Assembly: GCA_015523125.1 (NCBI GenBank)
Contig: WAKX01000014.1
Span: 1-64,000, forward strand
Length of the DNA: 64,000 nt
Direction of reading: 5' to 3'
Origin: DHVE2 group archaeon
GTDB lineage: Archaea; Thermoplasmatota; Thermoplasmata; Thermoplasmatales; Aciduliprofundaceae
The position numbers and the translations under genes were made by a program. Below the pieces are notes generated by a model. That model did not search any database, was not told the origin of the DNA, and saw only the letters and a list, made by a program, of their open reading frames with translations. The number at the start of each line of letters is the position of its first letter. Within the stretch, counting starts at the first letter, position 1. This document shows, in pieces, positions 2,679 through 64,000 of the stretch.

Positions 2679-3279
2679 ATGAACGATGTGAAAGACCTCA
2701 AAGATGTGCTGGAAAAGGTGGAGAAAAAGATAATGGCTGCTGGAAAAATATATGGTGCTATGAATTTTGCATTCTGGCTAGTCGCCATGCTCGGCTACTA
2801 CGTGCTGGCTCCATTCATGTCTTACAACATCCTATTTACAGGCATTTACTGGCCAATCGCGTTCGCACTCGCTATATTCTTCGTTGTGAAGATAACAAAA
2901 ATGATTGCAAAGGTGGAGAGAGAGTCATCATCTCGGGGATTCGGTGCCATGATTGGTATATCGTGGGTCGTAGGCGCGGCGGTGGGCTGGTTCTTGGTGC
3001 CGAGTATGAATATGGGAGCAAACGATATGGCTTCCATGGCCATGGGATTCCTCTCGTTCATATCCATTTCCATATTCGGAATGTGGCTCTCGTTCATTAA
3101 GTACAAAATCAGCGCGGAAGAAATGATTCCATCGTTCCTCATTCCAGCCATCGGGATTCCAATAGCCATGATAATGAAAACCAACGCCATGCTCTGGGCC
3201 GGCTTCTTGGTGGCAATTGCATTCTCCGCTACAATTCTCTGGTATCTTTATTCGGCGTTCAAGTACGTGGGTGTGCCAA

Positions 3280-3305
<26 letters not shown>
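2679..3305 (+). CDS. Six-helix membrane protein of unknown function
   Basis: A 208-residue protein with a short charged N-terminus and about six hydrophobic segments (roughly residues 25-47, 50-72, 88-108, 118-140, 150-166, 170-192). I do not recognise a family. The start ATG follows a GGTGATGTGA stretch. It overlaps the next gene, a winged-helix regulator, by about 26 bases, so the two are very likely co-translated. Membrane protein plus cytoplasmic HTH pairs like this recur in archaea and may form a regulator with a membrane-bound partner. That role is inference. Confidence 0.75.
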
Positions 3306-5758
<2,453 letters not shown>

Positions 5759-54053: not shown

Positions 54054-54386
54054 ATGGTGGAAACAATCAAGGAGCTCTTGGATGATTTCAAAGCCAAAAC
54101 CAATGCAGATAAGGTTATTTTGGTTAGTAGAACTGGAATGTTTATAGAAGGAGATGAGTTGGACAACCAAGACACTTTTTCCGCCATGAGCGCCATAGTT
54201 TTGGGGGCTTCTGAAACCGCCACCTCCATGATAGGGACCGTGGAAAAAATCGTTGTGGACATAAAAAAAGGCTACAAGCTAATTATAACTTCCGCTGGAA
54301 AGAGAGGGGTACTTGCGGTGGTTTCCAATAAGGACCACTGGAATGAAATCTCAGAGCTTCGGGAAAAATTAAAGGACATGATTTAA
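54054..54386 (+). CDS. Roadblock/LC7-family protein
   Basis: A 110-residue single-domain roadblock/LC7 protein: helix-strand-strand-helix pattern with NADKVILVSRTGMFIEGDE, a LSAMSAIVLGASETA helix region, and a final LREKLKDM helix. In archaea such proteins bind small Ras/MglA-like GTPases or serve in regulation of motility. A GATATATATATAATC box about 26 bases upstream indicates a leaderless start at ATG 54054. No GTPase lies adjacent. It overlaps the convergent PHP gene by 4 bases. Confidence 0.88.
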   Translation: MVETIKELLDDFKAKTNADKVILVSRTGMFIEGDELDNQDTFSAMSAIVLGASETATSMIGTVEKIVVDIKKGYKLIITSAGKRGVLAVVSNKDHWNEISELREKLKDMI

Positions 54387-62152: not shown

Positions 62153-64000
62153 GTGAAAAAAAGCTTCGTGGACAGGGAAAGGGAACTGAATCGCATTTAT
62201 TCCAATTTCGAAAGGACAAAAAGGGGCGAGGGCCGAGTGGTTCTCTTGGAAGGCCCTGCGGGGATTGGAAAAAGTGCAATAACGGAAAAATTCAAATCAG
62301 AAGTAAGCGGCGTGGAAATCCTTGATTCTCGGGCCACAGTGGACATGAAATTCTCCCCGTATTACCTGTTCAAAGAGGCCCTGAAGGATTACGGAGATTT
62401 GAAAAGCATAAAGACCGAGCAGGAAAGGAGAAAAATCAAAGATATCAGTGAAGACTTAGTTGTGAGACCGAGAATGGTGTTCGTGGACGAGATAGAGAAC
62501 GGCGCAGGGTACATGATTTTTCAGGAGATGAGAAAGGAAATCGAAGGGCTTTGCCTAACGGTTAGAATGCCCGAAAGCAAGGATGGGCTATGGCTCACTG
62601 AGACAAAGACTGAGAAGAAGAAGGTGAACCCCAGCAATCTGGAGTTCGAAGTTATTCCCCAAATATACGATTTTTTGGAAGGCGACGAGGAGAAGGTTGT
62701 GTACATAGACAATATCAACTATCTAATTTACCTCAACGGCATAGATCGCGTGGTGGAATTTTTACACACCCTATACTCAATGAGCGGGGGGAAGCACGGG
62801 GTGGTGATTTCGGGAAGGTCAGAGCATCTTACCGAGGAGGAGAAGAGCAAGCTATTTTCATGTTTCGACGAAATTCTATCATTCGAAATAACCAAAGAGA
62901 GAAAGAAACCCTCTCTTATTTTAGTGAGTTCCATCGAAGACGTTAGCGCCAGAAAGAAAGTTGTGTTCTCATCGAAGATAGGTGAGGGAGATTACACCAT
63001 AGGAGAAGCACCTTTGAATCCGCACCGCTTAGATTTTGAAATCTTCGAAACCATATCCAGAGAGATGGAGAATGGAAACAACGTGGTTTTAGATTGCATC
63101 CCCTACTTAGTGCATTACAACGGAATCCGCAAGATATACACCTGGATGAAGGCAGTAGCGGATTTCGCAGACAAGAATAACGTGAAAGTTTACGTGGTTA
63201 CCAAATCCCTAAATGATGTATACGTGGATATGCTGAAAGAACTCGCGGATGAGTCAAAAATAATGAAACACATGAAATATGAAGAAGTCAAAGAAGTGAA
63301 CGCAATAAAGTTCTACGATTCAATTTTGGGGTTCCTGGATTATAACTCCAAGAAAAAGCCCATCGTGATGATCCTCGAGGATCTGCAGTGGGCAGATAAA
63401 AGCTCTCTGGAGCTGTTCAGATATCTGGCGAGAAACATATCAAAAAGCAGAATATTCATACTTGCTACATACCGAGGGGAAGATATAGTATGCGATGAGG
63501 AAACCGCGGAGATAATGGAGGACATTCAATCACTGGAGAACGTGGATCTCATCAGGATTCGAGGGCTCAGCAGGGAGAACCTTGCAAAGCTTTTGATGGA
63601 AAAAGACCCGTATCTCAAGGAGGAAAAAATCGAAAAGATATACGAGAAAAGCGAGGGAAATCCCCTTCTGGCTCTTTCTATCTTAGAGCATTTCAGCAAG
63701 GGGGGTATGCAGGTTCCAGAGACTATAAGGGAGAGCGTAGAGATGCAATTGGAGTCTTTAGACGATAGAACTCTAAATTTTCTATGGGTGCTCTCGGCCA
63801 TAGGTGAGTACGCACCTCTGGACGTGGTAAAATCCATATACCCCAAGTGGAAAGAGAGATTGAAAAAGGTCGATGGGAAATTCGTTGAATACAAAGAAGA
63901 AGGGATAAGGTTCAAATACAGCATATACCGAGAAATCATATACAAGAGCGCATCGAAAGATGTGCGCGTGGATATCCACCGTAAATTGGGGGAGATTTAC
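62153..64000 (+). CDS. P-loop ATPase with DUF835-like insertions, 3' end cut by window edge
   Basis: At least 616 residues without a stop up to the right edge. Walker A GPAGIGKS is at residues 34-41, yet Walker B (VMILEDLQWAD) is at about 405-410; in MalT/AAA_16-type ATPases they are usually about 90-100 residues apart. The space between holds a DUF835-like domain (about 115-243, with YIDNINYLIYLNGIDRVVEF) and a second, more divergent one (about 255-370, with VVLDCIPYLVHYNGIRKIY). The AAA_16 C-terminal features (EGNPLLALSILEHF) resume after. An ACATATACA box about 26 bases before GTG 62153 fits a leaderless start. It may be a signalling ATPase. Confidence 0.8.
   Translation, partial: MKKSFVDRERELNRIYSNFERTKRGEGRVVLLEGPAGIGKSAITEKFKSEVSGVEILDSRATVDMKFSPYYLFKEALKDYGDLKSIKTEQERRKIKDISEDLVVRPRMVFVDEIENGAGYMIFQEMRKEIEGLCLTVRMPESKDGLWLTETKTEKKKVNPSNLEFEVIPQIYDFLEGDEEKVVYIDNINYLIYLNGIDRVVEFLHTLYSMSGGKHGVVISGRSEHLTEEEKSKLFSCFDEILSFEITKERKKPSLILVSSIEDVSARKKVVFSSKIGEGDYTIGEAPLNPHRLDFEIFETISREMENGNNVVLDCIPYLVHYNGIRKIYTWMKAVADFADKNNVKVYVVTKSLNDVYVDMLKELADESKIMKHMKYEEVKEVNAIKFYDSILGFLDYNSKKKPIVMILEDLQWADKSSLELFRYLARNISKSRIFILATYRGEDIVCDEETAEIMEDIQSLENVDLIRIRGLSRENLAKLLMEKDPYLKEEKIEKIYEKSEGNPLLALSILEHFSKGGMQVPETIRESVEMQLESLDDRTLNFLWVLSAIGEYAPLDVVKSIYPKWKERLKKVDGKFVEYKEEGIRFKYSIYREIIYKSASKDVRVDIHRKLGEIY

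Follow-up and report, generated by a model that had tools for sequence, protein, structure and literature searches.

A MalT-type STAND NTPase of DHVE2-group archaea with a pair of DUF835 domains between Walker A and Walker B

The gene that starts at position 62153 of the 64,000-nucleotide stretch analysed here (the window), from the genome of a deep-sea DHVE2 group archaeon, encodes a MalT-type STAND NTPase with a winged helix and a TPR array. Its NTPase is interrupted between Walker A and Walker B by two DUF835 domains, as an initial annotation of the DNA had proposed; the two flanking AAA_16 halves and the TPR C-terminus bore this out. STAND ATPases, such as those of the apoptosome, the inflammasome, MalT and Avs, are described as a linear series of effector, NTPase and sensor. 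In the present protein, two domains lie inside the NTPase, apparently at the surface that sets autoinhibition, and in many other archaea the same point is occupied by an unrelated domain. What is new is the insertion site, together with the alternative, probably roadblock-like, filling of the same slot in other Thermoplasmata STANDs.

The reading frame begins with GTG on the plus strand and is open through position 64000. It continues past the window, with no earlier stop, to contig position 65623 in its own assembly (contig C14), giving a protein of 1,156 amino acids. Walker A and Walker B therefore lie in one stop-free frame, as had been claimed, and K40 and D415 are invariant. The missing 3' part had been predicted to consist of helical repeats; in the full gene, Pfam identified six TPR_12 stretches and a TPR_MalT match after residue 612, outside the window. 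There is no effector domain at either terminus: the NTPase starts at residue 5, and the TPR repeats run to the C-terminal end. A separate terminal effector is a usual feature of the STAND layout, not a defining one. The features within the window are listed in the table.

Table. Features of the STAND-DUF835-TPR gene within the window
Feature	Position	Strand	Basis
STAND-DUF835-TPR gene, 5' part	62153..64000	+	open frame; homologues
NTPase N-terminal half, residues 5-100: beta1, P-loop, helix 1, beta2, ISM helix	62165..62452	+	AAA_16 positions 2-93; invariant residues
Walker A GPAGIGKS, residues 34-41	62252..62275	+	K40 invariant, 19 sequences
Putative ISM-equivalent helix PYYLFKEALK, residues 69-78; slot after it	62357..62386	+	helix in model; inferred from secondary-structure order relative to PMC6468293
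DUF835 copy 1 of the nested pair, residues 106-245; P-loop degenerate (EIENGAGY), lysine absent	62468..62887	+	Pfam 50.2 bits; FlaH match; residue columns
Nested DUF835 copy 2, residues 252-366, shortened, without helix 1 and P-loop region	62906..63250	+	Pfam 30.7 bits, E 3.2e-7; hhalign
NTPase C-terminal half, residues 380-445: pre-Walker-B helix, Walker B strand, TYRGED strand	63290..63487	+	AAA_16 positions 113-165
Walker B and following motif EDLQWAD, residues 409-415	63377..63397	+	alignment
NTPase-associated helical domain with GNP motif and winged-helix-like domain, residues 446-612	63488..63988	+	alignment; model

When the protein was scanned against Pfam in pieces, residues 5-97 matched AAA_16 positions 2-93 (6.5e-12) and residues 384-435 matched AAA_16 positions 113-165 (1.9e-8). 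Since the two matches are complementary, they represent halves of one domain and not two NTPases, and the possibility of two separate complete NTPases was thereby rejected. The sequence evidence that the split halves form a single NTPase domain is strong. In an alignment of 19 sequences, G34, G37, G39 and K40 of Walker A were invariant. The Walker B region reads VMILEDLQWAD, with ED at residues 409-410; position 409 was E or D, position 410 was D or N, and D415 was invariant. Y440 and R441, in the sensor-1-like TYR strand that follows Walker B, were also invariant across the 19 sequences, as were G502 and P504 in the GxP motif of the helical domain. A Pfam match that placed a single ATPase_2 domain across residues 5-232 was rejected, because the halves that flank the insert together make up an ordinary STAND NTPase and the insert itself is better described by the DUF835 profile.

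A structure predicted from an alignment four sequences deep was too weak to show the packing of the domains (pLDDT 65.7, pTM 0.36), and single-sequence prediction of the insert alone was worse (pLDDT 47.8). A phmmer search of the PDB with the protein encoded in the window found no meaningful relative, and comparison of the model with a viral fold library gave generic P-loop matches only.

The first insert was confirmed as a DUF835 domain (PF05763), since copy 1 scored alone gave 50.2 bits against a curated cut-off of 33.1. Copy 2, at 30.7 bits (E 3.2e-7), was slightly below that cut-off. By hhalign it was homologous to copy 1 (97.7% probability) and to free-standing DUF835 (96.7%); it is without the first helix and the P-loop region, so that its earlier designation as a half-domain is fair. 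No relative among the 19 sequences had a lysine at the catalytic position of the copy 1 P-loop site, which here reads EIENGAGY. The Walker A GxxxxGK[ST] of an active KaiC/RecA-type ATPase is thus absent from copy 1, and copy 2 lacks the region in which it would stand.

Galperin and colleagues annotated PF05763 as iKaiC, an inactivated KaiC-like ATPase, and the only architectures given in their passage on DUF835 are REC-DUF835 and REC-PAS-PAS-DUF835, both end-to-end (PMC5847659). The homology of DUF835 to KaiC-like proteins was supported by a match between the profile of the family alignment (A1) and the KaiC-family ATPase FlaH (4yds), with an E-value of 1.2e-6 over profile positions 157-244, exactly copy 1. 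A Foldseek search of the PDB with the weak model placed FlaH at rank 2 and also returned many KaiC proteins, MalT and Avs3, all at low TM-scores. The hhalign comparison of DUF835 with the genome's own KaiC proteins was weak (16%, p 1.6e-3). A KaiC hub in archaea was reportedly proposed by Makarova in 2017. The genome contains 19 DUF835 matches, two of which are genes that adjoin KaiC-like ATPase genes.

Relatives of the protein were sought in other genomes. Matches were obtained from 14 of 18 Aciduliprofundaceae/DHVE2 genomes, and full-span relatives came from four of the five genera of the family, with 29-96% identity and frames mostly of about 1,120-1,190 amino acids; the GenBank host names are those of DHVE2-group archaeal MAGs. 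The layout was common to all 17 distinct nested relatives surveyed, and the insert was present in every row of the 19-sequence alignment. No whole-query match was found outside the family among 300 sampled Thermoplasmata genomes, with the top four candidates scored per genome. Within the genomes searched, the nested-DUF835 layout occurred only in Aciduliprofundaceae/DHVE2. A scan of viral contigs found no relatives. A scan of genome contigs with narrow peptide patterns, which gives no limit on distribution, recovered two close relatives. One MAG carries a nested-STAND paralogue with a single in-frame TGA (L045, G009:C144:28861-30606), either a pseudogene or a sequencing error.

Mean pairwise identity was similar for the NTPase halves (0.44 and 0.49) and the inserts (0.41 and 0.38). 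When compared to the nearest relative, every domain had a dN of 0.006-0.026 and a dS of 0.35-0.75, and the resulting dN/dS of about 0.01-0.07 in every domain indicated strong purifying selection. In a tree of the NTPases of 90 STANDs, the proteins with DUF835 in the slot were monophyletic (SH-aLRT 95.9, bootstrap 99), which is consistent with a single origin; the deeper branches of this tree were poorly supported.

The same 90 distinct STANDs, nearly all from Thermoplasmata, were used to survey the slot; they were picked from search hits and hence are not a random sample. The length of the gap was trimodal, at 13-64 residues (no insert, n = 21), 155-176 residues (a different insert, n = 52) and 287-308 residues (the DUF835 pair, n = 17), and no protein had a gap between 64 and 155 or between 176 and 287 residues. 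The gap of 307 residues in the present protein, when compared to that of uninterrupted STANDs, corresponds to about 240-295 additional residues, in agreement with the earlier estimate of roughly 290. The helix PYYLFKEALK was contiguous with the N-terminal half of the NTPase in all three classes. The genome itself also encodes a STAND with the different insert at the same point (contig C17) and one without an insert that has a DUF835 pair at its N-terminus (contig C28).

The insert of the 155-176 class is a conserved domain of about 140 residues (alignment A6). It was not named by any library searched, with no Pfam hit to PF03259, and its profile gave only chance matches in the PDB. An hhalign comparison with archaeal Roadblock/LC7 gave a p-value of 1e-4 (58%), with the beta-beta-helix in register, whereas controls gave p-values of 0.01 or worse. 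This insert is therefore, with moderate confidence and not with certainty, a roadblock-like domain. The fact that alternative domains occupy one slot in related archaea suggests a common scheme by which such switches are connected to partner proteins.

The position of the slot was considered in relation to the crystal structure of PH0952, in which beta2 and H2 are separated by the helices ISM and ISMb. These two helices and H2 make up the tip of the nucleotide-binding domain (NBD), which the TPR sensor caps in the resting form (PMC6468293). The gain-of-function substitutions M96T and H102Y in ISMb of MalT alter this tip-TPR contact, and in APAF1 and NLRC4 a loop stands in place of ISMb (PMC6468293). 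As judged from secondary-structure order and aligned motifs, the insertion probably follows an ISM-equivalent helix (residues 69-78) and precedes an H2-equivalent helix (residues 379-396), and we infer that the nested domains would therefore be located at or beside the autoinhibitory contact.

Slot occupancy was associated with the N-terminal architecture of these proteins. Of the uninterrupted STANDs, 12 of 21 were extended at the N-terminus by 100 residues or more, compared to 2 of 69 slot-filled STANDs (Fisher p 8e-8, relatedness ignored). By inspection, the extensions of the uninterrupted proteins were mostly winged helices, with three DUF835 pairs, one of them behind a winged helix, and one cyclase-like domain; all extensions of readable identity were of these three kinds. 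The DUF835 pair was thus found in one of two places, the effector position or the slot, and an additional N-terminal domain was rare among the slot-filled proteins of this sample. Since 9 of the 21 uninterrupted STANDs also have no N-terminal extension, the effector swap is a tendency and not a rule. Two STAND-TPR proteins with an N-terminal DUF835 pair and an uninterrupted NTPase were L016:4201-7422 (contig C28) and L197:1943-5683; the latter has a winged helix before the pair and adjoins a nested-DUF835 STAND gene.

The two slot-filled classes differed in their gene neighbours. A Ras-like GTPase gene adjoined 10 of 21 roadblock-slot STANDs, in four families, compared to about 1% per locus expected from the number of GTPases per genome, and none of 21 DUF835-slot loci. 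On contig C17, the roadblock-slot STAND gene L018:3543-6578 (minus strand) is tail to tail with a Ras-like GTPase gene at 2736-3560 (plus strand), an arrangement that recurs in several families of the class. In genus g2, each of the four genomes has a KaiC gene that directly adjoins the DUF835-slot gene, tail to tail. This neighbour was convergent and limited to g2, and elsewhere the gene for an AK6-like kinase was found, so that the link of DUF835-slot STANDs to KaiC is thin. In the present genome, genes for an AK6/Fap7-like kinase and a CDP-alcohol phosphatidyltransferase are located directly downstream on the same strand (L014:9634-10727), and genera g1 and g4 conserve this association with the STAND gene.

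Both the pattern of N-terminal extensions and the gene neighbourhoods favour a role of the nested pair as an adaptor, for output or for docking a partner, over a role in sensing a ligand. On these comparisons of sequence and gene order, we hold the adaptor reading with about even confidence. The adaptor would most likely dock a KaiC-type ATPase or another DUF835 protein. In the resting, ADP-bound form, the TPR sensor would be held on the NBD tip, that is, at the insertion site. A signal on the TPRs would release the sensor, allowing the NTPase to open and multimerise; the nested domains might then be exposed or clustered and engage their partner, and the bound partner could in turn bias the NTPase towards the open or the closed state. 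More tentatively, the ISM-H2 loop may be a general plug-in slot of archaeal STANDs for docking domains, roadblock for Ras-like GTPases and DUF835 for KaiC-like ATPases, which replaces the end-of-chain effector, so that a STAND and a second nucleotide switch would control each other directly at the autoinhibitory interface.

The initial annotation proposed instead that the insertion puts a sensor inside the nucleotide-binding fold. As such a second sensor, the nested pair would bind a small ligand or a nucleotide and thereby directly open or close the NTPase. DUF835 is frequent in archaeal signalling proteins and, in this genome, is also fused to a 7TM histidine-kinase-type receptor region; in other genomes it is fused to REC and PAS domains (PMC5847659), and the insert would be located at the site that controls autoinhibition (PMC6468293). 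However, a KaiC-like fold without the P-loop lysine makes ordinary nucleotide binding unlikely, the same pair occupies the N-terminal effector position of uninterrupted paralogues, and a sensor is already supplied by the TPRs, as is usual in this class of STANDs. A sensory role was therefore considered rather unlikely. It is improbable that the insert is a passive decoration, a structural brake or an oligomerisation aid that binds nothing specific in a length-tolerant loop. This loop does vary among STANDs, at 13-64 residues in proteins without an insert, and ISMb is itself a loop in APAF1 and NLRC4 (PMC6468293), but gap lengths among the 90 proteins were discrete, both kinds of insert are recognisable or conserved domains, and the nested pair has invariant residues and a low dN/dS. 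The chance that a chimeric assembly, a frameshift or two complete NTPases taken as one produced the layout is negligible, since the AAA_16 halves are complementary, every domain is under purifying selection and the 19 aligned relatives come from independent assemblies, including two single-contig genomes.

These proteins differ from the closest known systems in several respects. PH0952 of Pyrococcus horikoshii (PDB 6MFV) is likewise archaeal, with a MalT-like NOD followed by a TPR sensor, but it carries a DNA-binding effector at its N-terminus, and its stretch from beta2 to H2 holds nothing beyond the short helices ISM and ISMb (PMC6468293); the present protein has about 290 residues in that stretch and no effector at either end. 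DUF835 (iKaiC) is reported as an end-to-end domain (PMC5847659), whereas here it is nested inside an NTPase. MalT and other AAA_16 regulators share the AAA_16 halves and the TPR_MalT-type repeats; the present protein has no HTH output domain and carries the nested DUF835 pair. The roadblock-slot STANDs of Thermoplasmata (e.g. L018:3543-6578) share the NTPase, the slot, the C-terminal TPRs and the lack of an N-terminal effector, but differ in their roadblock-like insert of about 140 residues and in the Ras-like GTPase gene that is often adjacent. Walker A and Walker B are also separated by an insert in other P-loop NTPases, such as SMC/Rad50, HslU with its I-domain and G-alpha with its helical domain. 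These unrelated families also have a functional module nested in the P-loop fold; their inserts are coiled coils or helical domains, in contrast to the inactive ATPase-like folds in a STAND described here.

Should the nested domains serve as docking sites, there would be a physical connection between archaeal STANDs and KaiC-like ATPases or Ras-like GTPases, and both the role of DUF835 and the targets of many effector-less Thermoplasmata STAND-TPR proteins would become testable. If the slot is a plug-in site, it would represent a third STAND layout beside those with N-terminal and C-terminal effectors.

Other loci in the genome also encode DUF835 or roadblock proteins. On contig C58 (L069:2961-6086), four consecutive genes encode a KaiC-like ATPase, a DUF835 protein, another KaiC-like protein and a response regulator. 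Genes for DUF835 proteins are clustered on contig C32 (L017:3726-15399). One encodes a DnaA-like AAA ATPase with DUF835 at its C-terminus, another a membrane protein that contains DUF835, and two more encode large proteins in which a DUF835 pair is combined with coiled coils and, at the C-terminus, a RING-like zinc finger. Within the window, a stand-alone roadblock/LC7 protein is encoded at 54054-54386 on the plus strand.
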